The notes below the pieces were generated by a model. That model saw only the letters and a list, made by a program, of their open reading frames with translations. It did no database searches and was not told where the DNA came from. From Ferruginibacter sp. (lineage in GTDB: Bacteria; Bacteroidota; Bacteroidia; Chitinophagales; Chitinophagaceae): 64,000 bases of DNA. Made by a program: the position numbers and the translations under genes. Positions 6,551 through 27,802 of this stretch are shown piece after piece. The stretch lies in assembly GCA_025963635.1 (NCBI GenBank), contig JAOQAK010000055.1, forward strand, positions 62,001 through 126,000, written 5' to 3'. Within the stretch, counting starts at the first letter, position 1, and each line of letters begins with the position of its first letter.

Positions 6551-6619
6551 ATGTCGGTGATTACCTGCAACACGATCTTAAAGGGGCGAAAAAAATTATT
6601 AATTGTAAACACTCCATTG

Positions 6620-7738
6620 ATGAACAAAAATGTATTAATAACCGGTGGCGCTGGCTTCATCGGATCGCATTTGGCGGATGAGCTTTTAGAAAACGGGTAT
6701 AATGTAAGAGTGCTCGACAATATGAGTGAACAGGTGCACGGAAAACAATGTAAAAGACCTCAATATCTCAACAGCGCCATAGAGTTGATCAAAGGCGATG
6801 TTCGTGATCCCAAAAAAGTTCAGGAAGTCCTAAAAGGAATGGATGCAGTATACCACTATGCAGCCATGGTGGGCGTAGGACAAAGTATGTACGAAATCAA
6901 AGAATACACTGAGGTAAATAATTTAGGTACCGCTGTTCTATTGGAAGCTCTTAGCAAAAACCCGGTTGAAAAACTGGTGGTAGCATCCAGTATGAGCATC
7001 TATGGAGAAGGACTTTATAGAGACAATAATAATACTATTAAAGCAGGTGTGGAAAGAAGCTTGCGACAACTCAAGGCAGGGGATTGGGAAATGCATGATG
7101 AAGCTGGCAATATTCTAAACCCCTATCCTACTCCTGAAACAAAAACGCCGTCGCTGTCTTCTGTGTATGCACTATCCAAATACGACCAGGAAAGATTGTG
7201 CCTGATGATTGGCAAGGCGTACAATATTCCGACTGTTGCACTGCGCTTTTTCAATGTATATGGCACACGGCAATCACTCTCAAATCCATATACCGGCGTG
7301 TTGGCAATTTTTGCTTCCCGCTTACTGAATGACAATCCTGTTTTAATATTTGAAGATGGTAACCAGAAGAGAGATTTCGTGAGTGTGCTCGATATAGCCC
7401 GGGCGTCTCGCCTCGCGATGGAATCACCGGGTGCAAACAATGAAGTGTTTAATATTGGCAGTGGAAATGCCTATACTATCAATGAGATTGCAGGAAAATT
7501 ATCAGAAATACTTAACAAAGAAGATATCATTCCCGAGATATGTGGAAAGTACCGGGTGGGTGATATCCGCCATTGCTTTTCAGACATCTCAAAAGCAAAA
7601 CAAATACTCGGATATGAGCCCGAGGTGTCTCTTGAGCAGGGCTTAATTGAACTGGCCGAATGGCTCGAAGGCCAGACAGCGGATGATAAAGTAACGATGG
7701 CCAGGCACGAATTGGCAGTAAGAGGACTTACCGTTTAA
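6620..7738 (+). CDS. NAD-dependent nucleotide-sugar epimerase/dehydratase
   Basis: Extended short-chain dehydrogenase (SDR) acting on a nucleotide sugar in the cytoplasm, 372 residues from the ATG at 6620. This start is preferred because the Rossmann motif TGGAGFIGSH then begins at residue 8 as in the family; an in-frame ATG at 6551 would add 23 unrelated residues. Active-site features are the Ser-containing strand SSMSIYGEG and the YALSK form of the YxxxK motif, followed by RFFNVYGTRQSLSNPY, a substrate-loop pattern of UDP-glucose 4-epimerase-like enzymes. The exact sugar is not certain. It heads a same-strand run with another epimerase 25 bp downstream, which points to precursor supply for the glycosyltransferases further on. 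Confidence 0.92.
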   Translation: MNKNVLITGGAGFIGSHLADELLENGYNVRVLDNMSEQVHGKQCKRPQYLNSAIELIKGDVRDPKKVQEVLKGMDAVYHYAAMVGVGQSMYEIKEYTEVNNLGTAVLLEALSKNPVEKLVVASSMSIYGEGLYRDNNNTIKAGVERSLRQLKAGDWEMHDEAGNILNPYPTPETKTPSLSSVYALSKYDQERLCLMIGKAYNIPTVALRFFNVYGTRQSLSNPYTGVLAIFASRLLNDNPVLIFEDGNQKRDFVSVLDIARASRLAMESPGANNEVFNIGSGNAYTINEIAGKLSEILNKEDIIPEICGKYRVGDIRHCFSDISKAKQILGYEPEVSLEQGLIELAEWLEGQTADDKVTMARHELAVRGLTV

Positions 7739-7762
7739 AAAACTTTAAATCGTTTATAAATT

Positions 7763-8857
7763 ATGGTAGTAAAATCTGCAGATCAAAAAGAAGAAAATAT
7801 TTTAATAACAGGCGGTGTTGGTTTTATTGGAGTAAACCTTGCCGACCGGTTATTAACGGAAGGCAAAAAGGTGATTGTATTTGATAATCTTTCAAGGGCG
7901 GGAGTTGAAAAGAATTTAACGTGGCTGAAAGAAAGGCATGGCCACAACCTGCAAGTTATGATCGCAGATATAAGGGATAAAGCTGCTGTTGCCACTGCCG
8001 TTGAAAATGCAGGACGAATATTTCATTTCGCTGCACAGGTAGCAGTTACATCGAGCCTCACAGACCCTTTTTACGATTTTGAAGTAAATGCCCAGGGAAC
8101 GCTTAACCTCCTGGAAGCGATCAGGCAATCTGCACATCAGCCACCGGTAATTTTTGCCTCAACCAATAAAGTATACGGCGACCTGGATGATCTTGGTATC
8201 GTAATGAATGGTACACGGTATCATCCCGAGAACACTATCTTTCGTCAGCAAGGGATCAGTGAAAAACGCAACCTCGATTTTCATAGTCCTTATGGATGTA
8301 CCAAAGGAGTAGCCGATCAGTATATGTTGGATTACGCACGAACCTTTGGTTTAAAGACGGTAGTATTTCGGATGAGTTGCATTTATGGCCTGCACCAGTT
8401 TGGAAATGAAGACCAGGGATGGGTGGCGCATTTCCTGATACAGGCTATAAAAAACAACACCATCACTTTGTATGGAGATGGCAAACAGGTACGCGATATT
8501 TTATACATTGAAGACCTCGTAAATGCTTACCTGCTGGCGATGGAAAATGTGCAGGATCTGTCGGGAAATGCATTCAATATGGGTGGTGGTATCGGCAATA
8601 CCATCAGCCTACTGGAATTATGTGAGATGATCAGCAAAATTTCCGGAAAGAAACCCACGGTAAAGTTTGAAGACTGGCGGCCAAGTGATCAAAAATATTA
8701 TGTTTCTGATTTTGGAAAATTCAATGCGGCCACCGGATGGGCCCCGCAGGTAGCAACCATTGAAGGAATAGAAAGATTATACAACTGGCTCCGCGAAAAC
8801 CAATCCGGCCGAACTATAAAGCCTGTAAAAAAACAAAACGCAATCAATGCCGCCTGA
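7763..8857 (+). CDS. CDP-paratose/tyvelose 2-epimerase-like sugar epimerase
   Basis: Extended SDR of 364 residues. Motifs: ITGGVGFIGVN (NAD binding), STNKVYGD (the active-site strand), SPYGCTKGVADQY (Tyr and Lys of YxxxK), and SCIYGLHQFGNEDQGWVAHF, which is characteristic of the CDP-paratose 2-epimerase (RfbE/TylE-like) branch. Family chemistry is C2 epimerisation through a keto intermediate using bound NAD. The real nucleotide (CDP, UDP or GDP) and sugar cannot be read from sequence, and no CDP-glucose dehydratase gene is visible nearby, so the paratose name is only a relationship. It lies 25 bp after the first epimerase in the probable operon. Confidence 0.9.
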   Translation: MVVKSADQKEENILITGGVGFIGVNLADRLLTEGKKVIVFDNLSRAGVEKNLTWLKERHGHNLQVMIADIRDKAAVATAVENAGRIFHFAAQVAVTSSLTDPFYDFEVNAQGTLNLLEAIRQSAHQPPVIFASTNKVYGDLDDLGIVMNGTRYHPENTIFRQQGISEKRNLDFHSPYGCTKGVADQYMLDYARTFGLKTVVFRMSCIYGLHQFGNEDQGWVAHFLIQAIKNNTITLYGDGKQVRDILYIEDLVNAYLLAMENVQDLSGNAFNMGGGIGNTISLLELCEMISKISGKKPTVKFEDWRPSDQKYYVSDFGKFNAATGWAPQVATIEGIERLYNWLRENQSGRTIKPVKKQNAINAA

Positions 8858-8965
8858 ACAATCAATTATCCAATATGCAAGCCAATCACATGATTACGCA
8901 TGACACGGCCATTCATTAAACCAATGGTTGGTTGATATTTATTTCGTTAAACCCACAATAAGTTG

Positions 8966-9919
8966 ATGATAGCAGCAGTACTGACTAAACCCGGATCCTT
9001 TTCATTAAGGGATGTACCAATCTCCACCGTAAAAGAAGATGAAGTAAAGATAAAAGTGGAAGGATGTGGCATATGCAGTTCCAGCATTCCATTATGGGAG
9101 GGCAGGGAATGGTTTACCTACCCCGCTGACCCCGGATCACCCGGTCACGAAGGCTGGGGAATTGTGGAAGAAACGGGTGAGAAGATAAGCAATGTACAGC
9201 GGGGCGATCGCGTTACCTTTCTCTCCTATCATTCCTACGCTGAATATGATATTGCACGTGAAGGTAGTTTCGTTAAACTTCCCCCGGAGCTGGAAAACAT
9301 GCCTTTTCCCGGTGAGCCACTGGGATGTGCTATGAACATTTTCAACCGCAGTGATATTACAGCAAATGATGTAGTAGCTATTATTGGAATGGGCTTTTTG
9401 GGTACGCTACTTTGCCAGCTCGTAAAAAACCGTGGTGCCAAAATAATCGCTATTTCCCGGAGGCAATACTCGTTGGATATGGCGCAGCGATACGGCGCCG
9501 ATGAAGTGATCCCATTAACCAGCACCTGGGAGGTAAGTAATACAGTAGCTGAGATTACCGGCAATGCATTTTGCACGAGGGTAATAGAAGCCACAGGCAA
9601 ACAGGAGGCAATTGATATTGCCACGGAGATTATTGGAGAAGGTGGAAAGATCATCATTGCCGGTTATCATCAGGATGGTTTACGGCAGGTAAACTTCCAA
9701 AAATGGAATTGGAAAGGAATCGATGTCATCAATGCACATGAGCGTGATCCGGCCAAATACCTCAGCGGTATGCAACATGCAGTGGAAGCCATGACAAATG
9801 GCATTATTCATCCCGATCAATTGTACACTGATATTCTCCCGTTAAACGAAATAGAAAAGGGATTTGAAAGAACAGGGAGGCGCCCCGATGGCTTTATGAA
9901 AGTATTAATTCAACCATAA
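8966..9919 (+). CDS. Zinc-dependent medium-chain alcohol dehydrogenase
   Basis: MDR-family NAD(P)-dependent oxidoreductase, 317 residues from the ATG at 8966 (an overlapping TTG at 8963 adds only one residue). The catalytic zinc site is visible: Cys37 in CGICSSS and His61-Glu62 in GHEGWG. The Rossmann fold has GMGFLG near residue 142. The four-Cys loop that binds structural zinc in classic alcohol dehydrogenases is absent, and the Asp usually found three residues after the catalytic Cys is Ser here. It lies 108 bp after the epimerase and 9 bp before the Gfo/Idh gene, so it probably oxidises or reduces a sugar or cyclitol intermediate of the same pathway. The substrate is unknown. Confidence 0.92.
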   Translation: MIAAVLTKPGSFSLRDVPISTVKEDEVKIKVEGCGICSSSIPLWEGREWFTYPADPGSPGHEGWGIVEETGEKISNVQRGDRVTFLSYHSYAEYDIAREGSFVKLPPELENMPFPGEPLGCAMNIFNRSDITANDVVAIIGMGFLGTLLCQLVKNRGAKIIAISRRQYSLDMAQRYGADEVIPLTSTWEVSNTVAEITGNAFCTRVIEATGKQEAIDIATEIIGEGGKIIIAGYHQDGLRQVNFQKWNWKGIDVINAHERDPAKYLSGMQHAVEAMTNGIIHPDQLYTDILPLNEIEKGFERTGRRPDGFMKVLIQP

Positions 9920-9928
9920 AAATTTTTT

Positions 9929-10936
9929 TTGGAAACACTTATCGCAACAAAACCCCGTTTAGCTTTTGCCGGTGTAGGCTGGATCGGAAGAGCCCGTATG
10001 AAAGCTGTGGCAGATAGCAACCTGGCTGAAATGTCGCTTATTGCGGACCCTTCTGAAGCATGCCTTCAGGAAGCTTTTAAAATTGCACCTGCAACAAAGA
10101 TCACCGGTTCCTTTGATGAACTGTTATCCGATAAAGAGATCGATGGTGTTGTAATTGCCACCCCAAGCGCCTTACACATGCAACAGGCCGTTGCCGCCTT
10201 TAAAGAAAACAAAGCCGTTTTCTGTCAGAAGCCGTTAGGTAGAAACCGTGTGGAAGTATCGGCCGTTGTGAATACCGCAAGACGTAACAACCGGTTATTG
10301 GGTGCCGATTTTTCTTACCGGTATACTAATGCATTTCAAAAGATACTGTCCATTATACGGTCGGGTGAATTGGGGAAGATTTTTGCCGTGGATCTCAAAT
10401 TTCACAATGCTTATGGACCGGATAAACCCTGGTTTTACGATTTTTCGTTGTCCGGCGGAGGTTGCGCATTAGATCTCGGCATTCACCTGGTGGATTTGAT
10501 GTTATATGCACTTGATTTTCCAAAAACAATCAAGATAAACAGCAGCCTGATGGCTAAAGGCATTTCAGTGAAGGGGAAAAAAGAAGTGGAAGATTATGCC
10601 GCAGTTACGATGGACCTGGAAGATGATATTACTGCGCAACTGGCCTGTTCCTGGAACCTGCCCGCCGGATCGGATGCCATCATTGAAGCTGGCTTTTATG
10701 GTACCAAAGGTGCCGTGGCGTTGAAAAATGTGGCGGGTTCGTTTTATGATTTTGTTGCCCTCCGGTATTGGGGAACAAAAACAGAAACCATCGTTGCTTC
10801 TCCTGATGACTGGGGCGGAAAGGCATTGCTAAGATGGATTAAACAACTTTCAACCAACAATCATTTTAACAGGGAAGCAGAACAATATTTACAATCAGCA
10901 GAAGTACTGGACAAAATTTATGGAAGAATGGACTAG
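9929..10936 (+). CDS. Gfo/Idh/MocA family oxidoreductase
   Basis: NAD(P)-dependent sugar or cyclitol oxidoreductase of 335 residues. The N-terminal Rossmann motif FAGVGWIGRARM starts near residue 13; the EKP catalytic motif appears as QKP in CQKPLGRN (Lys kept, Glu replaced by Gln), and the second active-site motif DLGIHLVDL carries the expected His. The start is TTG at 9929: no ATG lies before the Rossmann strand, and the next Met would remove it. It is 9 bp behind the alcohol dehydrogenase, and the next gene overlaps it by 17 bp, so translation is probably coupled. Inferred role: redox step in making an unusual sugar donor or tailoring a glycan. Confidence 0.9.
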   Translation: METLIATKPRLAFAGVGWIGRARMKAVADSNLAEMSLIADPSEACLQEAFKIAPATKITGSFDELLSDKEIDGVVIATPSALHMQQAVAAFKENKAVFCQKPLGRNRVEVSAVVNTARRNNRLLGADFSYRYTNAFQKILSIIRSGELGKIFAVDLKFHNAYGPDKPWFYDFSLSGGGCALDLGIHLVDLMLYALDFPKTIKINSSLMAKGISVKGKKEVEDYAAVTMDLEDDITAQLACSWNLPAGSDAIIEAGFYGTKGAVALKNVAGSFYDFVALRYWGTKTETIVASPDDWGGKALLRWIKQLSTNNHFNREAEQYLQSAEVLDKIYGRMD

Positions 10937-12038
10937 GGATACCCCTTTAAAAGTATTAATGACAACGGACACAATTGGAGGTGTGTGGTCGTATGCGATA
11001 GAGTTGTGCAGATCTTTGAAGGAATTCAATGTACATTTTCACGTCGTTACCACGGGTGCACCGATGCAGTTTTCACAGAAAGAGGAAATCAAAGCACTTG
11101 AAAATGTAACCGTATACGAAACCGATTTCCTGCTGGAATGGATGGATAGCCCGTGGCAAAGTATTGATAATTCGGGCGCATGGTTATTGGAACTTGCGGC
11201 AGAAGTACAACCCAACCTGGTTCATCTAAATTCCTATTCATACGGTTCATTAAACTGGAATGCGCCGGTGATAATGGTTGCTCATTCAGACGTATTTTCA
11301 TGGTGGCTTGCAGTAAAGCAAGGGTATCCCCCGGTGCATTGGAATAAATATTTTAAAAAGGTACACCGCGGATTACAAAAAGCAAACTTGATTATTGCTC
11401 CATCAAAATCATCGCTGAAGGATATCCGGAAAATTTACTTCGGCACTGCCCCGGGCAGGGTCATTTATAATGGAAGAGATGGTGGGCTGTTTTATCCCGC
11501 AGAAAAGCAACCTGTTGTCTGCAGCATGGGCAGAATATGGGATGAAGCAAAAAATATCCGCCTGTTGGTGGAAGCGGCAAAAAAGATCCGTTGCCCAATC
11601 AGGTTAGCCGGCGATACCAGTTTCGGAAACGATTATTGTTCAACCGCAGGTGCAAATATTACAAACCTTGGAAAAATTGCTGTCACCCAAATAGCTGCGG
11701 AGTTATCGGTTGCTTCCATTTATGTACTCCCGGCAAAGTACGAACCATTCGGACTGTCTGTTCTGGAAGCTGCCTTGTCAGGTTGTGCGCTTGTGTTGGG
11801 TAATATTCCTTCGCTGAAAGAGATTTGGGGCGATAGCGCTTTGTATATAAATACAAATGATGCAGCCGGTTTGGCTGACACTGTAAACCATTTATTAGAA
11901 AGTGATGAGCTACGTCAACACTATGCAGCAATGGCGATCGAAAGGGCAAAAAGATACAGTACCGAAGCGATGGCCGGCAACTACATAAACGTTTACCACG
12001 AATTATTAAACACCGGCGAACCCGTTACCTCTACTTAA
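10920..12038 (+). CDS. Glycosyltransferase family 4
   Basis: Retaining GT-B glycosyltransferase of 372 residues in the cytoplasm. The N-terminal acceptor domain begins KVLMTTDTIGGVWSYAIEL, with the glycine-rich loop of GT4 enzymes. The C-terminal donor domain shows the EX7E-type motif EPFGLSVLEAALSG, with the preceding YVLPAKY strand. It overlaps the end of the Gfo/Idh gene by 17 bp and is followed after 10 bp by three CgeB-like glycosyltransferase genes, so it should act in the same chain assembly. Donor and acceptor are unknown. Confidence 0.92.
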   Translation: MEEWTRDTPLKVLMTTDTIGGVWSYAIELCRSLKEFNVHFHVVTTGAPMQFSQKEEIKALENVTVYETDFLLEWMDSPWQSIDNSGAWLLELAAEVQPNLVHLNSYSYGSLNWNAPVIMVAHSDVFSWWLAVKQGYPPVHWNKYFKKVHRGLQKANLIIAPSKSSLKDIRKIYFGTAPGRVIYNGRDGGLFYPAEKQPVVCSMGRIWDEAKNIRLLVEAAKKIRCPIRLAGDTSFGNDYCSTAGANITNLGKIAVTQIAAELSVASIYVLPAKYEPFGLSVLEAALSGCALVLGNIPSLKEIWGDSALYINTNDAAGLADTVNHLLESDELRQHYAAMAIERAKRYSTEAMAGNYINVYHELLNTGEPVTST

Positions 12039-12048
12039 ACTTATCCAC

Positions 12049-13164
12049 ATGAAAATTATCCTTTTCTATCATTCATTACTGTCCGACTGGAATCATGGAA
12101 ATGCACACTTTTTACGCGGCATCGCCACCGAGTTGATTCTTAGAGGCAATGAGGTTGAGATTTACGAATCGGAAAACGCGTGGAGTTTATCAAACCTTGT
12201 TAAAGAACACGGTGTGGGTGCACTGCAAGATTTTTATAATTACTATCCACTGCTGAAATCCATTCAATACAATTTGAATTCGATTGACTTGGAGAAGGTT
12301 TTAAAAGGCGCAGATTTGGTAATCGTTCATGAATGGAACGAGCATCGGCTGGTGAAATGTGTTGGGGAGAAAAGGAGTACAATGAAATTTAAATTATTAT
12401 TTCACGATACACATCACCGGTCCGTTACAGAAAGTGAAAGTATGAAATCCTATGATTTATCGGCATATGATGGCGTGCTGGCCTATGGCGATGTTATCAG
12501 GGATATTTACTTAAAGGAAGGCTGGGCCAAACATGCATGGACCTGGCACGAAGCTGCAGACACAAGGGTTTTTAAACCCATGTCGGCCGGTAATTATGAA
12601 GGCGACCTAGTTTGGATTGGTAACTGGGGCGATGAAGAAAGAACCAAAGAACTTTTAGAGTTTATCATCAAGCCGGTAAAAGAATTAAAGCTGAAAGCAA
12701 AAATATATGGAGTGCGTTATCCGCCGCATGCCCTCAAGGCACTGGCGGATGCAGGCATCGAATACGGCGGTTGGCTTCCAAATTTTAAAGCTCCTGAAGT
12801 TTTTGCAAAATATCGTTTTACGGTTCATGTGCCCCGTGGCCCATACGTCCGTTTTCTGCCCGGCATCCCTACTATTCGCCCTTTTGAAGCACTTGCCTGT
12901 GCCATCCCATTGCTGTCTTCTCCCTGGAAAGACCAGGAACATCTTTTTACACCCGGCAAAGATTTTATCATGGCTCAGAACGGGGAAGAAATGAAAATGT
13001 GGATGCAGAAGATTATTTCCGATGATGCGCTTGCAGCCGATATGATGGCAAACGGGTTAAAAACTATCTGGCGCAATCATACCTGTTCACACCGGGTCGA
13101 CGAATTGTATACGATCTGTGAACAACTGGGTATCAAAAAACGCTCTAAACAAATACAATTATGA
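12049..13164 (+). CDS. CgeB-like glycosyltransferase (first of three)
   Basis: A 371-residue GT-B-fold protein related to Bacillus spore maturation protein CgeB. The N-terminal domain starts MKIILFYHSLLSDWNHGNA, with the family pattern (x)NGxAxxxRGI/L. The C-terminal domain ends with RPFEALACAIPLLSSPW, the nucleotide-sugar-binding helix, followed by the F-x-PGKDF segment. It overlaps the next gene by 4 bp (ATGA), which signals coupled translation. It is the most divergent of the three tandem copies, lacking the DYWEGID motif shared by the other two. Likely adds one sugar of the glycan; specificity unknown. Confidence 0.85.
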   Translation: MKIILFYHSLLSDWNHGNAHFLRGIATELILRGNEVEIYESENAWSLSNLVKEHGVGALQDFYNYYPLLKSIQYNLNSIDLEKVLKGADLVIVHEWNEHRLVKCVGEKRSTMKFKLLFHDTHHRSVTESESMKSYDLSAYDGVLAYGDVIRDIYLKEGWAKHAWTWHEAADTRVFKPMSAGNYEGDLVWIGNWGDEERTKELLEFIIKPVKELKLKAKIYGVRYPPHALKALADAGIEYGGWLPNFKAPEVFAKYRFTVHVPRGPYVRFLPGIPTIRPFEALACAIPLLSSPWKDQEHLFTPGKDFIMAQNGEEMKMWMQKIISDDALAADMMANGLKTIWRNHTCSHRVDELYTICEQLGIKKRSKQIQL

Positions 13165-14249
13165 AATTTGCTTTTTTTGGATCCAGTCTCGTTTCTGCAT
13201 ACTGGAATGGCGCAGCGACTTATTACCGCGGAATCATACGGGCCATGTATGAGAGAGGACATGAAATTACTTTTTATGAACCCGATGCATACGAACGGCA
13301 ACAGCACCGCGACATCCCGGATCCCGGTTGGGCTGTCATAAAAGTATACCAGCCCACCATCACAGAAGTGCGTAATGTATTGGAAGATGCGCTGCATGCG
13401 GATGTGATCATAAAAACCAGCGGCGTTGGCGTATTTGATCAATTGCTGGAGGAAGAAGTGGCGCAACTCAGGCTACGGAATAAATACGTGATATTCTGGG
13501 ATGTAGATGCCCCGGCGACGCTGGACCGTGTGAACAGCAGTGAAGATGATTACTTCAGCAAATTGATTCCGCAATATGATCTCATTCTCACCTACGGTGG
13601 CGGCGAACCAGTTGTAAATGCTTATAAAAAATTAGGTGCTAAAAATTGCCATCCTATCTACAACGCACTGGATCCCTTCACACATCATCCTGTAGAAAAA
13701 CAAACCCATTTTGAAGCCGACCTTGTTTTCCTGGGAAATCGTTTACCCGACAGGGAAAAACGGGTGGAAGAATTCTTTTTACAGGTCGCAGAACAGATGC
13801 CGGGGTGCAACTTTATTTTAGGTGGAAACGGCTGGCAGGATAAACCGATGCCATCAAATATCAAGTATATCGGGCATGTATTTACGAAGGATCACAATGC
13901 TTTAAACTGTTCACCGAAAGCTGTTTTAAACATCAGTCGCGATAGTATGGCGAAGTATGGCTTTTCGCCGGCGACCCGTGTTTTCGAGGCAGCGGGTGCT
14001 GGCGCCTGTATCATTACAGATTATTGGGAAGGCATCGATTCTTTTTTTGAACCCGGAAAAGAGATCCTGGTTGCAAACAGTGGCGATGCGGTAAAAGAAA
14101 TTCTTGTCTCTCTCACAAAAGAAAAGGCAGCGGAAATTGGGAAAGCTGCGCTGCAAAAAGTTTTAACCAAACACACTTACACACATCGTGCAGCAGAACT
14201 GGATAAAATCCTCTTACGTGAATTCAGCGGATCAAAATTAATCGTATGA
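13161..14249 (+). CDS. CgeB-like glycosyltransferase (second of three)
   Basis: A 362-residue paralogue of its neighbours. It opens with KFAFFGSSLVSAYWNGAAT, followed by YYRGIIRAMYERGHEITFYE, the acceptor-domain pattern of the CgeB group. The donor domain carries RVFEAAGAGACIITDYWEGI and the FFEPGKEIL segment. Start and stop both lie in ATGA overlaps with the flanking genes, so the three are one translation unit. Family members have a glycosyltransferase fold; the exact donor sugar has not been established for this type. Confidence 0.87.
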   Translation: MKFAFFGSSLVSAYWNGAATYYRGIIRAMYERGHEITFYEPDAYERQQHRDIPDPGWAVIKVYQPTITEVRNVLEDALHADVIIKTSGVGVFDQLLEEEVAQLRLRNKYVIFWDVDAPATLDRVNSSEDDYFSKLIPQYDLILTYGGGEPVVNAYKKLGAKNCHPIYNALDPFTHHPVEKQTHFEADLVFLGNRLPDREKRVEEFFLQVAEQMPGCNFILGGNGWQDKPMPSNIKYIGHVFTKDHNALNCSPKAVLNISRDSMAKYGFSPATRVFEAAGAGACIITDYWEGIDSFFEPGKEILVANSGDAVKEILVSLTKEKAAEIGKAALQKVLTKHTYTHRAAELDKILLREFSGSKLIV

Positions 14250-15355
14250 AACAACCGCCATTAAATATAGTTATCCTGGGCTTATCTATAACTTCTTCCT
14301 GGGGTAACGGGCATGCGACCACCTTCAGGGGACTTGTGCGTAAATTGTGTAAGAACGGCCACCATGTTACTTTTCTTGAGAGAGACAAGCCCTGGTATGC
14401 GACAAACCGTGACCTTCCGAATCCATCTTTTTGTAAAACTATTTTATACAATAGCGTGGATGAACTTAAAAACCAATATGCCGACCTGATCCGCGAAGCC
14501 AACCTCGTTATTGTGGGTTCCTATGTGCCTGAAGGGGTTGCTGTGGGTGAATTGGTAACAGCCACTGCACAAGGGATTACTGCCTTTTATGACATCGATA
14601 CACCGGTTACACTTGCCAAGATAAAAAAGGGAGATTTTGAATATCTCCATCCGGCGCTGATACCGCAGTATAATCTATATTTGTCTTTCACGGGCGGCCC
14701 AACCCTGCAAAAACTGGAAGAGGAATATGGGTCTCCAATGGCAATGCCGTTCTATTGTTCCTTTGATCCTGAACTCTATTATCCACACGAAGAAACAATT
14801 AAATGGGACCTTGGTTACCTTGGAACTTATAGTGATGACCGGCAGCCCCCGTTACAAAAGCTGGCAGTTGATGCTGCACGATTATTACCGGGGGCGAAGT
14901 TTGTAGTAGCCGGCCCCCAGTACCCAATTAATTTGGATTGGCCCGGTAACGTCGAACGGATTGAACACTTACCGCCATCGGAGCACAGTGCCTTTTATAA
15001 CAGCCAGCGCTTTACAATGAACATAACAAGATCTGACATGATCGAAGCGGGCTTCTCCCCCAGTGTGCGCCTGTTTGAGGCGGCTGCCTGCGGCACACCC
15101 ATCATCAGCGATTATTGGGAAGGCATTGATCATTTTTTTGAGATAAACAGGGAAATTTTAATCTCCTCTTCTGCAGCAGACACGGCTTTTTATATTAAAT
15201 CCATTAGTGAAGAAGAAAGAAAAGCAATCGGTGAATGGGCCCGTCAGAAAGTGCTCCAACATCATACGGCTGCGCATCGGGCAATCGAACTAGAGATGTA
15301 CTACAAGGAAGCAATTACCAGGAAAGCTTCAACCAAATTGGTTATGAAAGAATAG
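14246..15355 (+). CDS. CgeB-like glycosyltransferase (third of three)
   Basis: A 369-residue paralogue closest in motifs to the second copy: GNGHATTFRGLVRKLCKNGH at the N-terminus, and RLFEAAACGTPIISDYWEGI followed by DHFFEINREIL in the donor domain. It overlaps the second gene by 4 bp and is the last gene of the plus-strand run that begins at 6620; a perfect 13-bp inverted repeat 52 bp downstream ends the unit. Three sequential paralogues suggest three linkages in one oligosaccharide rather than redundant copies, but that is inference. Confidence 0.87.
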   Translation: MKQPPLNIVILGLSITSSWGNGHATTFRGLVRKLCKNGHHVTFLERDKPWYATNRDLPNPSFCKTILYNSVDELKNQYADLIREANLVIVGSYVPEGVAVGELVTATAQGITAFYDIDTPVTLAKIKKGDFEYLHPALIPQYNLYLSFTGGPTLQKLEEEYGSPMAMPFYCSFDPELYYPHEETIKWDLGYLGTYSDDRQPPLQKLAVDAARLLPGAKFVVAGPQYPINLDWPGNVERIEHLPPSEHSAFYNSQRFTMNITRSDMIEAGFSPSVRLFEAAACGTPIISDYWEGIDHFFEINREILISSSAADTAFYIKSISEEERKAIGEWARQKVLQHHTAAHRAIELEMYYKEAITRKASTKLVMKE

Positions 15356-16933: not shown

Positions 16934-17201
16934 TGCTTTCTAAAATCCAGGATTTTGCATGGATATCCCGCAATAAGAAATGGTACAATTTTTATACATA
17001 TTCACAATGATGTTGCTCGGTAAATGCACCGCGTGTTAATCACTATTCATTTAGCTTAAGGCGTTGCGATATACAACAGAACATATGCCATTAAAACTGT
17101 GAAGCGGCCGGCACAAATTTAAAATGAGCAATATGCCAGTACCCGTTTGAATTTCGCATCAGCAACCCGTATCAACTTCCTGGTTGCCTTTAATAAAAAA
17201 A

Positions 17202-18290
17202 ATGAAAGCATTAAAAATTGGTGTTTTAACATTTCATCGTTGTATCAATTACGGCAGTTACTGGCAGGCCCGTTGCCTGGTGGAAGGGTTGATTGCCCGC
17301 GGGCACAACGCAGCTATTCTTGATCATGAATCACCGCAGGTAAATGTTGCCGAATGGAAATGCGCCTACCGGCCGGTATTGCCCACAGCAGTTCCTGAAT
17401 CTGATTATCCACTTTACCGAAAAAAAATAAAAAACTTCTTTCGCTCCTTTGATTCGCTGCCGCTATCACCCAGGTTTGGATTAAATGATCCGGAACAAAT
17501 GGAAGACTATGATATGATCGTAGTGGGTAGTGATGAAGTGTGGAATTTATTTCATCCATGGTATGGCGGATGTCCCCTGTTTTTTGGTGAAGGTCTTCGT
17601 GGGAAGCGCCTGGTTTCTTATGCAGCAAGCTTTGGAAATTATGATGCATCCTGGCAACTGCAACCAAGTTGGAGCGAAAAGCTTCGCAACTTTTCGAGCA
17701 TTTCAGTGCGGGACGAAAACTCACAGCGCATCGTAAAAAACGCGATAGGGATTGAACCTGCATTGGTGTTGGATCCGTGCCTGCAGTTTCCGGTTCATCT
17801 GGAGGAACGCGCTATCGCGGAGCAGCCTTACATCGCCTTATATGGACATAATTTTTCTCCATTTTTCGTAAATCAAATCCTTAGTTGGGCAACCCATAGA
17901 AATCTACCACTAGTCAGCATTGGCTATCGCAACGACTGGGCACATGAACAATGGATTACTGCTGATCCACATGACTTCGCACACTTTATGGCCGGTGCTG
18001 AAGCGGTAGTAACCAATTTCTTTCACGGCTGCGTATTTGCACTGCGGAACGGGAAATCATTTGTTTGTGAAACCACCCCTTATCGCGGTAACAAACTGCA
18101 GGGGCTTTTGTCGAAAACCGGTAGCAACAAACATCTTGTAAATGAAACTACGCCCACTGCCACCTATCATCATTGCCTGAATGATCCTTTGGAAGAGCAG
18201 ATTTTTCGAAACATCCGGCAGCTTCAACAGAACTCCAATGAATACCTTGATCAGTCATTGAGCCTAAACCACATTCATCAATATGGATAA
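17202..18290 (+). CDS. Polysaccharide pyruvyl transferase family protein
   Basis: A 362-residue GT-B-like enzyme of the PS_pyruv_trans family, which typically moves pyruvate from PEP onto a sugar as a ketal. Motifs: IGVLTFHRCINYGSYWQA at the N-terminus, MIVVGSDEVWNL (the family GSDxxWN motif), LVSYAASFG, ISVRDENS, and VVTNFFHGCVFALRNGKSFV near the C-terminus. The ATG at 17202 is chosen over a TTG at 17184 because it directly precedes the conserved strand. It overlaps the FrhB-like gene by 8 bp, a pairing often seen in exopolysaccharide loci. Likely adds an acidic pyruvyl group to the surface glycan. Confidence 0.9.
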   Translation: MKALKIGVLTFHRCINYGSYWQARCLVEGLIARGHNAAILDHESPQVNVAEWKCAYRPVLPTAVPESDYPLYRKKIKNFFRSFDSLPLSPRFGLNDPEQMEDYDMIVVGSDEVWNLFHPWYGGCPLFFGEGLRGKRLVSYAASFGNYDASWQLQPSWSEKLRNFSSISVRDENSQRIVKNAIGIEPALVLDPCLQFPVHLEERAIAEQPYIALYGHNFSPFFVNQILSWATHRNLPLVSIGYRNDWAHEQWITADPHDFAHFMAGAEAVVTNFFHGCVFALRNGKSFVCETTPYRGNKLQGLLSKTGSNKHLVNETTPTATYHHCLNDPLEEQIFRNIRQLQQNSNEYLDQSLSLNHIHQYG

Positions 18291-19668
18291 ATTGCTAAGT
18301 CCAAAGGATATTGTACGTTCGGGCCTATGCATTGGTTGCGGAAGCTGTGTTGCCCGGTCGCATTCACCTGGTGCGCAAATGCAATTTGATCCTTACGGGC
18401 AATTGAAACCGGCACCTGCCCGGAGATGGTACCAATTACGCTCTGAAGAGTTTACCAACACCTGTCCCTTCTCCCCGGCGGCAAAAAATGAAGACCAGTT
18501 GGCATCGCAACTTTTTGCAGCGGTGCAACATGAAACGACTGTAGGGTATTTGCAGGCAGCTTATGTAGGGCATGTGGAGGAAGATACATATCGTGCGCAG
18601 GGAAGTTCAGGTGGAATGGTAACCTGGGTGGCAACAGAACTACTTCGAAAAGGATTAATTGATGGGGTGGCACATGTGGTGGCATCAGAAAACCCACAAG
18701 CCAACGGAAGATTTTTTCATTATCGTATCGCCCGGACCGAAGCTGAAATCCGTGAAGGTGCCAAATCGAGGTATTACCCGGTTGAACTTTCTGAAATCAT
18801 CAGAACAATACAGGCGATCCCCGGCCGCTATGCAGTGGTTGGCATTCCGTGTTTTATCAAGGCGGTGCAATTGCTCCGAATGGAAGACTGGGTTTTGAAG
18901 GAACGCATCGTTTTCACACTCGGCCTTTTTTGTGGCCATATGAAAAGTGCCCGCTTTGTAGAAAGTTTTGCCTGGCAGATGAAGGTTCCCTTTAGGCAAA
19001 TTCAGCAGGTTGATTTTCGTTATAAAGACGCGGGCCGGCCCGCAAACTGGTACAATGCAATGCTTCAATTAAACAATGGTGAAACGGTAAATAAAGATTG
19101 GTGGCATCTTGCTGATGGTGACTGGGGTGCAGGTTTTTTTATGAACAATGCCTGCAATTTTTGTGATGATGTTGTGGCAGAAACGGCCGACATATCTTTT
19201 GGTGATGCATGGGTGGAGCCTTACGCTTCGGATGGAAAAGGCACGAACGTGGTGGTGGTACGATCACCGGTAATTCACCAGGTATTGCTGGATGGCATTG
19301 CAGGAGCCCGGCTGCAGCTCAAAGAAGTTGATGCATCATTTGTAGCACAAACGCAGGCCGCGGGCTTAAGGCAACGGCGCGAAGGATTGGCTTACCGGCT
19401 TACCTGGAATCACCGGGGAGTTAAACCTCTTAAACGGGTAGCGCCGGATTCAACAACGCCAGCTAAACAACGCAAATGGATTTACACGATGAGATATTAT
19501 ATTTCAGCCTGGAGCCATCGTATTTTCCGGCTTGCCCGGAGCATTCAACAACCGCGACTATACATTGCCTGGAGCCGCCTTGCAGGAGCCGTGTATCATG
19601 GCCTTGCATATCACAAAGGAAAAATTGGCGAAATGAGTAAACGATTCAGCCAATTGAAAACCAGATAG
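18283..19668 (+). CDS. FrhB-like iron-sulfur flavoprotein (F420 hydrogenase beta family)
   Basis: A 461-residue protein with a ferredoxin-like CIGCGSC motif (residues 17-23), then the FrhB_FdhB N and C domains: GSSGGMVTWVATELLRKG, GIPCFIKAVQLLR, LFCGHMKS, and NACNFCDDVVAETADISFGD followed by the GKGTNVVVVRS segment. These contain further Cys residues for Fe-S binding. The family was named from coenzyme F420 hydrogenase, but Bacteroidota are not known F420 users; in polysaccharide loci it sits next to pyruvyl transferases and its reaction is not established. It overlaps the pyruvyl-transferase gene by 8 bp, so the two are co-translated. The last 80 residues are a basic extension without a known domain. 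Confidence 0.88.
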   Translation: MDKLLSPKDIVRSGLCIGCGSCVARSHSPGAQMQFDPYGQLKPAPARRWYQLRSEEFTNTCPFSPAAKNEDQLASQLFAAVQHETTVGYLQAAYVGHVEEDTYRAQGSSGGMVTWVATELLRKGLIDGVAHVVASENPQANGRFFHYRIARTEAEIREGAKSRYYPVELSEIIRTIQAIPGRYAVVGIPCFIKAVQLLRMEDWVLKERIVFTLGLFCGHMKSARFVESFAWQMKVPFRQIQQVDFRYKDAGRPANWYNAMLQLNNGETVNKDWWHLADGDWGAGFFMNNACNFCDDVVAETADISFGDAWVEPYASDGKGTNVVVVRSPVIHQVLLDGIAGARLQLKEVDASFVAQTQAAGLRQRREGLAYRLTWNHRGVKPLKRVAPDSTTPAKQRKWIYTMRYYISAWSHRIFRLARSIQQPRLYIAWSRLAGAVYHGLAYHKGKIGEMSKRFSQLKTR

Positions 19669-20407: not shown

Positions 20408-21352
20408 TTACAAATTTATCCCATATAGTTGCCTCAACTCCCCTGCGATCCGGCCGATCACCGGTTCCCATTCATCACGGTACTGTTGCCTGAAGAGCCG
20501 CATTGTCGGATACCAGGGACTATATTCCAGTTTATCCATCCATCGCCAATCTGCTTCGGCCTGCAACAGGGTCCAAACCGGCACACCTAATGCGCCGGCA
20601 AGATGCACGGGCATGGAATCAATAGAGATCAGGAGATCGAGACCGGCAATATAATGTGCTAATTCATGAACGGGTAGTTGGCCCGGGTATACTCCAAATT
20701 CTCCATCCCAACCTGCATCGGGTGCATCGTGCTGAAGTATATAAAAGTCGAGCCCGGGTATGCTGGCCAAAGGTGAAAGCAGTGAAAAAGGGACAGAACG
20801 GTGTTGGTTCCATTCTCCCGATTTCCAAACCAATCCAACAGCAGGTCGGCCCGTTTGCAATGAATGCGGCTTTGAATCAATATGCAGATAAGGAATTTTG
20901 ATTGGTATGGTTTCCAACTCACTGCGAAAAATATGCGCCAGTTCCATCACTTCCACGTCCACATCAAATGCTATTTCGGGCACTCCGTCATGCAGTGGCA
21001 ATATTTTGTCAATACCTTCAACTGTTTTTAAAAGAGGAATCAATTTTGGCTGCGCCCAAACGATCACTTCACTTGCAACGGCTTTGATCAACGCTACGTA
21101 CCGGATGAATTGGATGGTATCTCCCAGGCCATGATAACAGCGCACCAACACCCGTTTTTCATTAAGCGGTTCGCCGTTCCAGATGTATTGTAAGTGGCGC
21201 GGCAAATGCCAGCAAGGCTTTCCGGCCCTGGATTTCAGTACCTCGTCACAATGTTGCCATGCAGCGCTGAATTGGCCGCGGCGCATAGAATGCATCCAAA
21301 TATCTTCTATATCCTGTTTAACTTGCTGCCACATAATTTTTGAGCTAATCAT
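20408..21352 (-). CDS. Glycosyltransferase family 9-like protein
   Basis: A 314-residue GT-B protein related to LPS heptosyltransferases and to TPR-linked GT9 proteins. A helical N-terminus (about residues 1-60) precedes RVLVRCYHGLGDTIQFIRY, the GT9 glycine-rich acceptor motif, then VGLVWKSGEWNQHRSVP, and the donor motif DLLISIDSMPVHLAGALGVP with PVWTLL. The ATG at 21352 is taken instead of the TTG at 21364. It is 27 bp after the permuted-barrel glycosidase gene and completes a methyltransferase-glycosidase-GT9 operon. Likely transfers a sugar in the same glycan pathway. Confidence 0.88.
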   Translation of the reverse strand: MISSKIMWQQVKQDIEDIWMHSMRRGQFSAAWQHCDEVLKSRAGKPCWHLPRHLQYIWNGEPLNEKRVLVRCYHGLGDTIQFIRYVALIKAVASEVIVWAQPKLIPLLKTVEGIDKILPLHDGVPEIAFDVDVEVMELAHIFRSELETIPIKIPYLHIDSKPHSLQTGRPAVGLVWKSGEWNQHRSVPFSLLSPLASIPGLDFYILQHDAPDAGWDGEFGVYPGQLPVHELAHYIAGLDLLISIDSMPVHLAGALGVPVWTLLQAEADWRWMDKLEYSPWYPTMRLFRQQYRDEWEPVIGRIAGELRQLYGINL

Positions 21353-21379
21353 TCCGCAGACCAATATTGAAAAAGGTGA

Positions 21380-22264
21380 TCAGGCATAGCGCCGCATCAT
21401 TTGCGCACAAAAATCAGCAAACTCTTCGGGGTGAATGGGCGGACTGGTATGATGTGGTTGAATGCCCTTTGATTCGGGGGTGAAACAAAAAGTTACCGTT
21501 AGATCAAATTCCTGCAAGGCATTCATCATTTTATCAAACCATTGTTCCGCATTGGGCCTAAGGTAATCTGCCCAACTCAGGCCCGTACGCAGGTATTTTA
21601 CTCCCAGCCGCCTGAGCCAGTCAACTGCAGCCTCCAGCCGCTGATCTTCAAAATGAAACCACTGGCAAATTCCAAGCTCGGGCGTATAGTCTGCAAAATG
21701 CTTTAGCGCCAGTTTAGGGGTACCATCCTGTTGCAGCAGCCCCATATCAAAATGACGGTAGTAAGAGGAGCCTTCAGCCTCGCGGTGACGTGTGGTGGCC
21801 TCCCACTCCCGCGGCAGGTCGTAAAGGCTGTACCAATGAACCCGGTCTACACGGCCCATTAACAACTCGGCAGTGCGGCGTAACCCAAACTCCTGAACTT
21901 CTTCTGCGCCGAAAGTAGAGATGCCTACTTCTGTAACCCATACGGGCAAATGGGTCACCGCTTCAATCTCCGCTATTTTAGCCGGCCATTCGTGGATCTT
22001 CCATAAATTCCAATCGAGTGGAAAACCGTGAACCGCTACCGCGTTCATATCCTCCAGTGCTCCATATTCTTCCATTTTCCTAATGAAAAAAGGATCGATG
22101 GGCGAAATACCTCCGAGAACACGCAAAATACCCGGCTTTTCAGCCTTAGCTGCCTGTGCTGCCAGTGTAACCATATTTCCGAAAAGTTTCCAATCGGTGT
22201 CAATCTCAAAAGCCCAATGTGATTTATTATTGGGCTCGTTCCAGAATTTTACTGCTTCAATCAT
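21380..22264 (-). CDS. Clan-A glycosidase-like protein with circularly permuted barrel order
   Basis: A 294-residue TIM-barrel protein resembling GH39/beta-xylosidase-type hydrolases, but with its parts in swapped order. The acid/base motif KFWNEPNN (Glu10) lies at the very start, the nucleophile motif PVWVTEVGIS (Glu112) in the middle, and VHWYSLYDLP after it. Residues 196-294 (LGICQWFHFE, YLRTGLSWADY, VTFCFTPE, EEFADFCAQMMRRYA) look like strands 1-3 that should precede the WNEP strand. The start at 22264 overlaps the methyltransferase stop by 4 bp (ATGA), so no N-terminal barrel half is missing upstream in this frame. Both catalytic Glu residues are kept. No signal peptide, so cytoplasmic: it may act in glycan synthesis or trimming. 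Substrate unknown. Confidence 0.75.
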   Translation of the reverse strand: MIEAVKFWNEPNNKSHWAFEIDTDWKLFGNMVTLAAQAAKAEKPGILRVLGGISPIDPFFIRKMEEYGALEDMNAVAVHGFPLDWNLWKIHEWPAKIAEIEAVTHLPVWVTEVGISTFGAEEVQEFGLRRTAELLMGRVDRVHWYSLYDLPREWEATTRHREAEGSSYYRHFDMGLLQQDGTPKLALKHFADYTPELGICQWFHFEDQRLEAAVDWLRRLGVKYLRTGLSWADYLRPNAEQWFDKMMNALQEFDLTVTFCFTPESKGIQPHHTSPPIHPEEFADFCAQMMRRYA

Positions 22265-23016
22265 AATTCAATCTGCTGTTTCCGGGATGGATAAACTGCG
22301 TAGCATTCATTATCGGGCAACTCAGCCTTACGGCAGAGGTATACCTCTTTTTCAGGATGCATGATGATCTCAAAACCTGCGCTGCGAAGCATGGCTTCCA
22401 TACAGGCCTGGTTTGGAATCCACCAATTGGTGGGATCATTCGCATATCGATATTCTATAAAATACATGTGGGGAAACTGGGGACGATCAAAGATGTCGGT
22501 ATTCCAAAAATCGTAGTCGGGTTGAGTTGGTTCAACTTCCGCGCTGCCGCGTTGCATGGATTGAAATATCAGCAAATCCTTTACAACATTTTCGTACAGG
22601 AGATCAAGCGCTAACAAGGGATGGCGTAGATGGTATAAGACTCCCATGAAGATCACCACATCAAACTTTTCACCTAGCCCTGCAACATCGTACACAGACC
22701 TGTTCTGAAAATCAATTTCATAACCTAACACTTTTGCAGCGTAGCGAGCCTGCTCGAGGTATCTTTCATCCGAATCGATTCCCACCACCTTGTCGGCTCC
22801 ACGCCTTTTCATTTCAATTGAATAAAAGCCCCCGTTACAACCAATATCCAAGACCGTTTTTCCATGCAAATCAGCAGGAATGGCATGGGCAAATCTTTGA
22901 AATTTTATATTGGGGTAATCGCCTAAGAAATGATCCGGTGCAGTTTTTATTCCACCTAAATCAATATTGTGAAACCATTTACCCAGTTTATGAACCTCCC
23001 CCTGTATATCATTCAT
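22261..23016 (-). CDS. SAM-dependent methyltransferase, TIGR04290-like
   Basis: A 251-residue class I methyltransferase. Motif I is VLDIGCNGGFYSIEM, motif II VVGIDSDERYLEQA, and the post-motif strand VVIFMGVLYHLRHPLLAL resembles the CmoB/Methyltransf_9 group. The C-terminal segment includes NTDIFDRPQFPHMYFIEYR and PNQACMEAMLRSAGFE. I believe this matches the NCBI family TIGR04290, found with glycosyltransferases, but this is from memory. Its stop overlaps the start of the permuted glycosidase by 4 bp, so the two are co-translated. It probably methylates a sugar or glycan carrier. Confidence 0.87.
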   Translation of the reverse strand: MNDIQGEVHKLGKWFHNIDLGGIKTAPDHFLGDYPNIKFQRFAHAIPADLHGKTVLDIGCNGGFYSIEMKRRGADKVVGIDSDERYLEQARYAAKVLGYEIDFQNRSVYDVAGLGEKFDVVIFMGVLYHLRHPLLALDLLYENVVKDLLIFQSMQRGSAEVEPTQPDYDFWNTDIFDRPQFPHMYFIEYRYANDPTNWWIPNQACMEAMLRSAGFEIIMHPEKEVYLCRKAELPDNECYAVYPSRKQQIEL

Positions 23017-25559: not shown

Positions 25560-27719
25560 ATGGATATGATAAGATCAACAAACACCATTGTGTATCCTGC
25601 TATCTGGGGTGGAGTGGAATGTACCATCAACAGGCGGCACAATGTATTTAAGGATCAGTTGCACCTTTCAAATCATTATGAAAGAAAGGACGATCTTGAA
25701 GCTTTTGCTCAACTGGGCATAAAAGCAATCCGGTACCCGGTTTTATGGGAAAAACACTGCGCAGATCAAAATGGTGTAATTGACTGGACCTGGGCTGATC
25801 AACAGCTAACCACCTTACGTGAGTTGCAGGTTGAGCCAATCGTGGGACTGATTCACCATGGAAGCGGTCCTGCTTTTACTTCCCTGTTAGATGACAAATT
25901 CCCCATCAAATTGGCCGCCTACGCAAAGGAAGTTGCTACCAGGTTTCCGTGGGTAGAGTATTATACACCTGTGAACGAACCACTAACAACCGCACGTTTT
26001 TCAGGCCTCTATGGATTTTGGTACCCACATAGCAAAAATGAACATGACTTTTTAACGATGTTGCTCAACCAGGTGGAGGCAATCGTGCTCTCGATGAGGG
26101 CGATCAGGGAAATCAACCCGGCGGCAAAACTGGTGCAGACGGAGGACATCGGTAAAACACATAGCACGCCTCTTTTAGCTTACCAGGCGGATTTTGAGAA
26201 TAGCCGCCGTTGGCTCACCTATGATTTGCTATGTGGCAAAGTGACTCCTGATCATCCGTTGTGGAACTACTTTATAGTAAATGGAATTGAGAAGGCCCGA
26301 CTTGATTTTTTTTCTGAAAACCTTTGCTTGCCCGACATTGCCGGATTTAATTATTATGTAACTTCTGAACGTTACCTTGATGAAAAAGTGGAGAACTTTC
26401 CCACCTGTGTGAGAGGAAGCAACCACTTCCACGAGTATGCGGATATTGATGCAGCCAGGGCGATACGGCCGGCGGGAATTGGTAAGATATTAACTGAAGC
26501 CTGGAACAGGTACCATCTTCCAATGGCCATCACTGAAGCCCACCTGCATTGCAGCCGTGAAGACCAGCTTCGATGGTTTAAAGAGATATGGGACAACTGC
26601 TGCAATCTTGTAAAAAAAGGCATCAATATCAAAGCGGTAACTGCATGGTCACTATTGGGGGCATACGATTGGAATAGCCTGCTCGTTCAGGATGCAGGGA
26701 TGTATGAAACCGGGGTATTTGATTTAACTACCCATTCCAGGCGGCCCACCGCCATGGTTAAACTTATCCGCTCGTTAAGTACAGAAGGTGAATTTAATCA
26801 TCCGCTTTTAACTAATAAAGGATGGTGGTATCGGCACAACCCCGCAATTAAGCGTGAAATGAATGTTCTAAGTGCTCTCAATACTCCACCCCTTCTCATT
26901 ATCGGGAGCGGCACACTTGGCAGTGCTTTTACCAAAGTTTGTGAAGACAGGGGAATATCTTATAAAATATTGGCAAGGCCTGATATCGATATCACCGACC
27001 AGGCGTCGGTTGAATACGTGATGAACATTTACAAGCCCTGGGCGGTGATCAACGCCGCGGGGTATGTTAAAGTGGATGATGCTGAATCAGCCATTGCCGA
27101 ATGCTTTGCCGTTAATGCAAAAGCACCGGCTTTGCTGGCAGCGGAATGCAAAAGATATGGCATACCGTTTATGACTTTTTCTTCCGACATGGTTTTTAAT
27201 GGCATCAAGCGCTCTCCCTACATGGAGAGCGATAAGATGGTTCCGATAAACATTTACGGGAAAAGTAAGGCTGAGGGCGAGGCCGGAGTTGTAGCTGCCT
27301 ACCCGGAAGCGCTGATTATAAGAACGAGTGCTTTCTTCGGGCCATGGGATAAAAACAATTTTGTATACAACGTAATTAATTCGCTACAACAAAAAAATTC
27401 TTATAAAGCGGTGAACGATGTGATTGTATCCCCCACGTATGTGCCTGACCTGGTAAACGCCTCACTTGATCTCTTAATTGATGAAGCAAATGGCATATGG
27501 CACTTATCGAATACCGGAAGTGTAACCTGGGCAGATTTCGCCCAGGAAATCGCTCAACGAAGCGGCTATTCTAAAAATAAAATTGTCTCTAAGATGGCTG
27601 CAGAGATGAGTTGGAAAGCACAGCGCCCTTTCTATAGCGTACTGGAGAGTGAAAAGGGCATAAAGCTACCCTGTCTTGACAACGCCATGGACCGCTTTTT
27701 TTTAAGTAAATCCAATTAG
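25560..27719 (+). CDS. GH1-like domain fused to RmlD-like sugar reductase
   Basis: A 719-residue two-domain protein. Residues 1-430 resemble family 1 glycoside hydrolases: KAIRYPVLWEKH, the acid/base motif YYTPVNEPLT (Glu near 140), and the nucleophile region MAITEAHLH (Glu near 325, where classic GH1 has ITENG). Residues 440-719 are an RmlD/dTDP-4-dehydrorhamnose reductase-like SDR: LLIIGSGTLGSAF, VINAAGYVKVDDAE, FSSDMVFNG and the YGKSK active-site motif, then RTSAFFGPWD. There is no signal peptide, so a hydrolase fold sits in the cytoplasm with a sugar reductase. An inferred role is sugar-nucleotide or glycan synthesis rather than digestion of food glycans. The gene is followed 83 bp later by a stand-alone GH1-like gene. 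Confidence 0.88.
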   Translation: MDMIRSTNTIVYPAIWGGVECTINRRHNVFKDQLHLSNHYERKDDLEAFAQLGIKAIRYPVLWEKHCADQNGVIDWTWADQQLTTLRELQVEPIVGLIHHGSGPAFTSLLDDKFPIKLAAYAKEVATRFPWVEYYTPVNEPLTTARFSGLYGFWYPHSKNEHDFLTMLLNQVEAIVLSMRAIREINPAAKLVQTEDIGKTHSTPLLAYQADFENSRRWLTYDLLCGKVTPDHPLWNYFIVNGIEKARLDFFSENLCLPDIAGFNYYVTSERYLDEKVENFPTCVRGSNHFHEYADIDAARAIRPAGIGKILTEAWNRYHLPMAITEAHLHCSREDQLRWFKEIWDNCCNLVKKGINIKAVTAWSLLGAYDWNSLLVQDAGMYETGVFDLTTHSRRPTAMVKLIRSLSTEGEFNHPLLTNKGWWYRHNPAIKREMNVLSALNTPPLLIIGSGTLGSAFTKVCEDRGISYKILARPDIDITDQASVEYVMNIYKPWAVINAAGYVKVDDAESAIAECFAVNAKAPALLAAECKRYGIPFMTFSSDMVFNGIKRSPYMESDKMVPINIYGKSKAEGEAGVVAAYPEALIIRTSAFFGPWDKNNFVYNVINSLQQKNSYKAVNDVIVSPTYVPDLVNASLDLLIDEANGIWHLSNTGSVTWADFAQEIAQRSGYSKNKIVSKMAAEMSWKAQRPFYSVLESEKGIKLPCLDNAMDRFFLSKSN

Positions 27720-27802
27720 AACCATAAGTTTAAAAATTTCCTGGCATTATAAAAATACCAGGTGCTACAAAAACGTTCCTGAAATAAAAAAGTTTGTATT
27801 CT

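Follow-up and report, generated by a model that had tools for sequence, protein, structure and literature searches.

A predicted clan-A-like glycosidase with a circularly permuted barrel in Ferruginibacter and bacteria of other phyla

The locus and its genes

The window analysed here is a 64,000-nt stretch of a Ferruginibacter sp. contig (GCA_025963635.1, JAOQAK010000055.1, positions 62,001–126,000), whose glycosidase frame, read on the minus strand from 22264 to 21380, begins with MIEAVKFWNEPN and carries WNEPN at residues 8–12 and VTEVG at residues 110–114. The ATG of this frame shares an ATGA with the stop codon of the upstream methyltransferase gene, and an in-frame TGA (22270–22268) lies two codons 5′ of it, so that no N-terminal piece is missing from the protein. 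The preliminary description had taken the overlap to fix the start and had discounted a lost upstream piece; both the overlap and the in-frame stop, which rules such a piece out, were found. No signal peptide was seen on reading of the sequence, as the chain starts directly with β4.

The same description placed the gene between a methyltransferase and a GT9-like gene. The former was firmly recognised by TIGR04290, whereas the GT9 likeness of the latter was weak and fell just under the Pfam cut-off (Table 1). Elsewhere in the window, the minus strand at 54039–62420 holds an open frame of 2793 aa with a hydrophobic stretch at its N-terminal start.

Table 1. Features of the glycosidase locus, followed by examples of normal-order fusions at other loci; homologue counts refer to flanks of up to 8 kb around 80 permuted genes
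Feature	Position	Strand	Evidence	Loci with homologue
Permuted clan-A-like glycosidase, order β4–β8 then β1–β3	21380..22264	minus	294-aa ORF	
Residues 1–195, β4 to β8, C-terminal two thirds of a normal barrel	21680..22264	minus	PslG alignment, model strands	
Residues 196–294, β1 to α3, N-terminal third of a normal barrel	21383..21679	minus	PslG alignment, model strands	
E10, candidate catalytic acid/base (WNEPN) after β4	22235..22237	minus	E in 92/92; codon checked	
E112, candidate nucleophile (VTEVG) on β7	21929..21931	minus	E in 92/92; codon checked	
TIGR04290 family methyltransferase	22261..23016	minus	386 bits, cut-off 300	37/80
Weakly GT9-like gene, just downstream	20408..21364	minus	PF01075, 21.1 bits, cut-off 22	39/80
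FrhB-like protein (coenzyme F420 hydrogenase beta subunit family)	18283..19668	plus	PF04432, PF04422	28/80
Polysaccharide pyruvyl transferase family protein	17184..18290	plus	PF04230, 121.9 bits	28/80
Histidine phosphatase, near TIGR03848	16087..16785	minus	186 bits, cut-off 204	58/80
Four glycosyltransferase genes (one GT4-type, three Glyco_trans_1_2)	10920..15355	plus		28, 28, 26 and 16 of 80
Zinc-binding dehydrogenase and Gfo/Idh/MocA oxidoreductase	8963..10936	plus		23/80 each
Two SDR sugar-nucleotide epimerase/dehydratase genes	6551..8857	plus		32 and 30 of 80
Normal-order glycosidase-SDR fusions (also on a Rhizobium sp. N1314 plasmid)	L014 15667-16881; L067 2731-4923			

Strand order in alignments and in the structure model

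Members of clan GH-A are retaining hydrolases with a (β/α)8 barrel that runs from β1 to β8, an Asn-Glu acid/base at the end of β4 and a Glu nucleophile at β7. For the window protein, the preliminary description had predicted that putting the C-terminal ~99 residues first would restore this order. A phmmer search of the PDB with the unrotated query gave PslG (5bx9/4zn2) as best match in two reordered pieces (18.2 bits, E 0.011), residues 198–293 lying on PslG 22–128 and residues 4–193 on PslG 133–331. Rotation at residue 195 yielded a match in one piece, query 5–289 on PslG 25–328, with 37.8 bits and E 1.2e-8. A control rotation at residue 130 also scored well (32.5 bits over PslG 22–178), since part of the order is recovered whenever the two ends are brought together, and full rotation curves are therefore a better test than single PDB rotations. 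In a scan over six normal-order relatives, local alignment scores of the query were highest at rotation 186–195 in every case, with peaks of 318–461 compared to 215–289 for the natural order; the chance level, taken from 200 shuffled targets each with the unrotated query, was at most 69. The predicted rearrangement thus gave a one-piece match both to PslG and to the normal-order relatives.

An AlphaFold2 model of the window protein, for which 26 family members served as input, had a pLDDT of 81.9, a pTM of 0.84 and eight strands alternating with helices, at residues 2–7, 47–50, 75–80, 108–115, 142–146, 198–200, 224–230 and 254–260. Model confidence was low (pLDDT < 50) at residues 11–15, 82–86 and 154–169, which form loops on the presumed catalytic side. 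The strands followed the permuted order, and a normal β1–β8 order from residue 1, named beforehand as an outcome that would overturn the proposal, did not appear. The earlier assignment of strands 1–3 to the C-terminus held in the model, although its exact segments were slightly off: β1 comprised residues 198–200, YLRTGLSWADY covered β2 and its loop, VTFCFTPE corresponded to β3, and EEFADFCAQMMRRYA was modelled as helix α3, not a strand. The top Foldseek matches of the model were TIM barrels, mostly designed and non-glycosidase ones (best E 5.9e-5), with two GH10 xylanase rows lower; PslG was not among the 50 matches listed, as expected of a permuted barrel with a sequential aligner. Alignment and model together confirmed that the glycosidase reads as a complete clan-A-like (β/α)8 barrel in the order β4–β8, β1–β3, and they make it almost certain that the barrel is naturally circularly permuted. 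The enzyme was filed as clan-A-like and permuted because its strand order differs from that of clan GH-A.

Profile searches gave little by comparison. The only Pfam match, PF11790 (cut-off 21), scored 19.3 bits in natural order, where it covered β4–β8, and under five rotations it gave 16.0–20.5 bits in four and was absent in one; the naming of the family rests on the similarity to PslG, since PF11790 stayed below cut-off in every order tried. A Pfam rotation scan, considered as a test of permutation, was dropped as uninformative, with PF11790 as its single match. No GH39 model was among the Pfam hits of the natural order and five rotations, a search in which HMMER filters drop most weak matches, and no GH13 or GH70 model was among the Pfam hits either. 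NCBIfam contained no match up to E 1 and PHROGs none up to E 0.1. Permuted genes of this kind can slip through classification, by family profiles as well as by structural matching.

Among (β/α)8 glycosidases, a catalytic domain that is circularly permuted by nature is known from the GH70 glucansucrases of clan H as compared with GH13. These large, secreted, multidomain enzymes share with the window enzyme a permuted barrel fixed across a family, and differ from it in clan, catalytic residues and cut point. For clan A, no permuted glycosidase was found in the open-access literature searched, and none was described among the titles and openings of abstracts listed there. In PMC10485009 the phrase appears a single time, where work on a carbohydrate esterase is cited. 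PslG of Pseudomonas aeruginosa is, by the same paper, a GH39 member and a periplasmic hydrolase of the polysaccharide made by the operon that encodes it (PMC10485009). The window enzyme resembles it as its best PDB sequence match, and PslG differs in its normal strand order, its periplasmic location and a chain of 416 residues that runs about 88 residues past the match to the rotated permuted enzyme.

Spread of the permuted gene and its normal-order relative

A scan of genome contigs gave 477 relatives, and the counts below rest on the best 80 of them, many of which are metagenome assemblies. All 80 loci matched the window protein in one piece and in permuted order, over at least residues 1–293 in 78, residues 1–290 in one and residues 2–290 in one. 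The start fell at the window's residue 1 in 79 (71 ATG, 8 GTG), and the remaining locus, L088, has an ATG one residue earlier, two codons before its residue 2; in 46 of the 80, no in-frame start occurred upstream before a stop. By their record titles, the loci are from Pseudomonadota (33), Bacteroidota (25), Verrucomicrobiota (8), Myxococcota (6) and Acidobacteriota (2), with one each from Actinomycetota, Gemmatimonadota, Chloroflexota, Armatimonadota and Nitrospirota; a single locus has no assignment. Members from these about ten phyla are 61–84% identical to the window protein. The actinomycetotal locus (L025, a Williamsia sp. MAG) encodes a protein that groups with Bacteroidota rows in a gene order matching theirs, so that its contig is probably mis-binned.

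Plasmid records with a match numbered 146, of which 97 were at 60–80% identity and 49 below 60%. Among 40 rows drawn evenly from them, 26 matched in one piece (65.6–69.4%), 13 in two pieces (33–35%) and one in part (32%), and every one of the 26 rows at about 65–70% identity kept the permuted order. The gene is also carried by complete plasmids such as Sinorhizobium pSymB. Records from S. meliloti pSymB and Azospirillum plasmids that carry the name 'beta-xylosidase', a deposited product name only, belong to the same family, being 68.7–69.4% identical in one piece. Alignments and modelled strands show the order to be fixed in the family members examined, as the preliminary description had wanted to see. 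No relative fell between about 38% and 61% identity among those examined, which makes the permuted family look sharply set off from its normal-order kin.

Full-length permuted members were rare. They occurred in 1 of 395 evenly drawn genomes of the window's own phylum (the window genome itself), in 12 of 398 genomes from the phylum of a Methylobacterium member and in 2 of 194 from the phylum of a Verrucomicrobiota member, the reference member being counted in each of the latter two. This sporadic occurrence and the plasmid copies suggest that the permuted gene spread horizontally. The permutation is old or mobile enough to have become fixed in family members of about ten phyla with the clan-A catalytic residues kept. 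It probably goes back to an ancestral gene of normal order that was duplicated in tandem and then trimmed; a duplication intermediate was not seen among the relatives examined, nor was a β4 remnant (WNEP) seen by eye in the variable C-terminal tails of the 32 of 80 members longer than 300 aa. A Sorangium genome with a full permuted copy contains, in addition, a 167-aa frame in which a stretch of 30 residues (L103 1501-1587) is 67% identical to window residues 139–168; too short for a firm placement, it may be what remains of a second copy or a second copy that was cut.

A glycosidase domain in normal order accompanied the permuted gene at a minimum of 6 of the 80 loci (L014, L015, L031, L032, L067 and L080), a lower bound because the flanks were 8 kb or less; an initial count of 80/80 was dropped, as the query also matches the permuted gene itself. 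This domain was 29–36% identical to the permuted protein in most tblastn pieces and 33–36% where both pieces were found; at L067 and L080 the β4–β8 piece alone passed tblastn, with the rest visible in alignments. It is fused in front of the second of the two SDRs, as recognised by Pfam for L014 and L067 and by an SDR motif in the other four. The Rhizobium sp. N1314 plasmid has its two-piece match inside a gene named epimerase, with neighbours that include Gfo/Idh, zinc dehydrogenase, SDR, four glycosyltransferase and UDP-glucuronate decarboxylase genes; inositol-phosphate synthase was not annotated within 12 kb, in a gene table that is incomplete.

The normal-order relative was modelled with strands β1–β8 at residues 17–21, 46–52, 77–84, 122–127, 163–166, 191–196, 227–233 and 259–263 (pLDDT 77.7, pTM 0.81). 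The first three Foldseek matches of this model were PslG (best E 2e-13), at 18% identity in the Foldseek alignment, and Pfam gave only a 12-bit GH1 match. The SDR-fused domain shares clusters with the permuted enzyme and can be aligned with it along the domain after rotation, and it differs in its own β1–β8 order, in the epimerase fusion and in the loss of the nucleophile at two loci. There, in L067 2836-3783 and L080 1018-1968, the position of the nucleophile is A and not E, SAT or TAT being read where others read TEA. The permuted paralogue in the L067 and L080 clusters keeps both Glu. The permutation offers a natural test case for the tolerance of a barrel to being cut anew, and the normal-order paralogue found in some of the clusters can serve for comparison.

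In a tree of 51 rows, two of which (L120 and L106) were very long, a starred branch of length 3.53 with 100/100 support lay between the ten fused domains and the permuted ones. The six GH39-like rows set as outgroup formed one side at 87/83, not starred, and a branch setting the permuted rows apart occurred in only 24% of bootstrap trees; the tree is compatible with a single origin of the permutation as well as with several.

The window itself holds a further, distinct case in which a clan-A glycosidase fold is coupled to a sugar-nucleotide SDR: a 719-aa protein (25560–27719, plus strand) consists of a GH1-like domain (PF00232, 46.8 bits) and an RmlD-like reductase (215.7 bits). The next gene, at 27794–29005, is GH1-like too, over 150 residues.

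Catalytic residues, gene context and proposed role

We compared 92 family members (the 80 loci and 12 members from genome surveys), in which 69 residues were invariant. These include E10, E112, N9, H79, R226 and W144, which we take to occupy the clan-A positions. In the model, N9 and the candidate acid/base E10 follow the strand 2–7 (β4) and the candidate nucleophile E112 lies in the strand 108–115 (β7), in line with the roles proposed for the WNEPN and VTEVG motifs in the preliminary description; H79 is placed on β6, R226 on β2 and W144 on β8. In the proposed arrangement, the break in the chain would lie between α3 and β4, and a short turn would connect the former termini (α8 and β1). The barrel would then close as usual, so that E10 and E112 should meet in one active site lined by R226, H79 and W144, with a double-displacement, retaining mechanism. 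From clan-A relatives we infer this geometry and chemistry, and an active retaining enzyme is likely.

The genes around the permuted one suggest synthesis of a glycoside that contains inositol. Within flanks of up to 8 kb, which were full at 58 loci, an inositol-phosphate synthase gene was found near 55 of the 80 permuted genes (43 of the 58 with full flanks) and was missing from the flanks of the other 25; in the window genome, its single match sits on another contig. In S. meliloti pSymB, genes for inositol-3-phosphate synthase, a histidine phosphatase and the permuted enzyme stand in a row. On an Azospirillum plasmid, the TIGR04290 gene extends to position 15004 of the locus, whereas 'beta-xylosidase', which follows it, already starts at 15001; this is the arrangement of the window. 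Direct search of the flanks also found a nucleotidyltransferase near 20 of the 80 genes and PIG-L near 9, the latter replacing a count of 43/80 from ORF clustering that was dropped. A glucosaminyl-inositol (mycothiol-like) product, which a PIG-L deacetylase would fit, was considered and set aside.

Given this synthesis-type cluster and the absence of a visible signal peptide, the most likely role, judged from context, lies in the cytoplasm, where a retaining glycosidase or transglycosylase would act on an intermediate of an inositol-containing glycoside. Such an enzyme might trim a β-glycoside on the way to an inositol-containing oligosaccharide or glycolipid, or transfer a sugar. The suggestion of a synthesis-side enzyme in the preliminary description agrees with the company of inositol-phosphate synthase, phosphatase, methyltransferase and glycosyltransferase genes. 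As a whole, the protein is probably a naturally permuted, PslG/GH39-like, retaining clan-A glycosidase that acts on an inositol-glycoside intermediate; taken separately, the inositol-glycoside pathway, read from gene context, has a slightly better than even chance of being right.

Transfer in place of hydrolysis is a less likely alternative, in which the enzyme, as a transglycosylase or glycoside synthase, would chiefly form glycosidic bonds and not break them. The lack of a visible signal peptide, the glycosyltransferase, SDR and inositol-phosphate synthase genes of the biosynthesis-type cluster and the paralogue fused to an SDR would all fit; however, sequence does not separate transfer from hydrolysis, and PslG, the nearest solved relative, is a hydrolase (PMC10485009). 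The more specific picture, a fixed permuted clan-A enzyme serving about ten phyla as a cytoplasmic transglycosylase that makes a glycosyl-inositol product, is rather unlikely. Loss of catalysis may occur in this fold, since the nucleophile position is A in two of the six normal-order paralogues, and the window protein itself could by analogy be a non-catalytic binding or scaffold protein of the cluster with a glycosidase fold. We consider this improbable, because the six key residues, like the 69 overall, are invariant in 92 of 92 sequences and fit a constrained active site. Still less probable is a domain swap in which one chain would supply β1–β3 to the barrel of a second, so that no closed monomer forms and the order within a single chain is of less weight than it looks: the joined α8–β1 turn is short, and sequence and single-chain model are compatible with such a swapped dimer, but AlphaFold obtained all eight strands from a single chain with a pTM of 0.84, and the gene would be permuted either way. 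An assembly error, chimera or gene fragment, conceivable in a 106-contig draft and in part named beforehand as a refutation, is ruled out for practical purposes by eight strands in one frame and by the same order in 80 of 80 loci, about ten phyla and complete plasmids such as pSymB.

The permuted enzyme, here preferred as a retaining glycosidase, and its product are directly testable, as S. meliloti 1021 (NC_003078.1:257009-257890, on pSymB) and S. meliloti 2011 both carry the gene. Neither TIGR04290 nor the term 'rhizo-twelve' was found in the open-access literature searched; the latter reportedly denotes, for NCBI's curators, a conserved cluster of which TIGR04295 is part. On an Azospirillum plasmid (L157 9693-11021), a TIGR04295 B12-binding radical SAM protein is encoded in the cluster shared with the permuted gene. 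The conserved inositol-linked cluster spans many phyla, and its inositol-phosphate synthase genes are of two types, as seen in L072 6805-7962 and L019 13571-14896 (both Pfam-checked) and in L071 3607-4689 (by reading).
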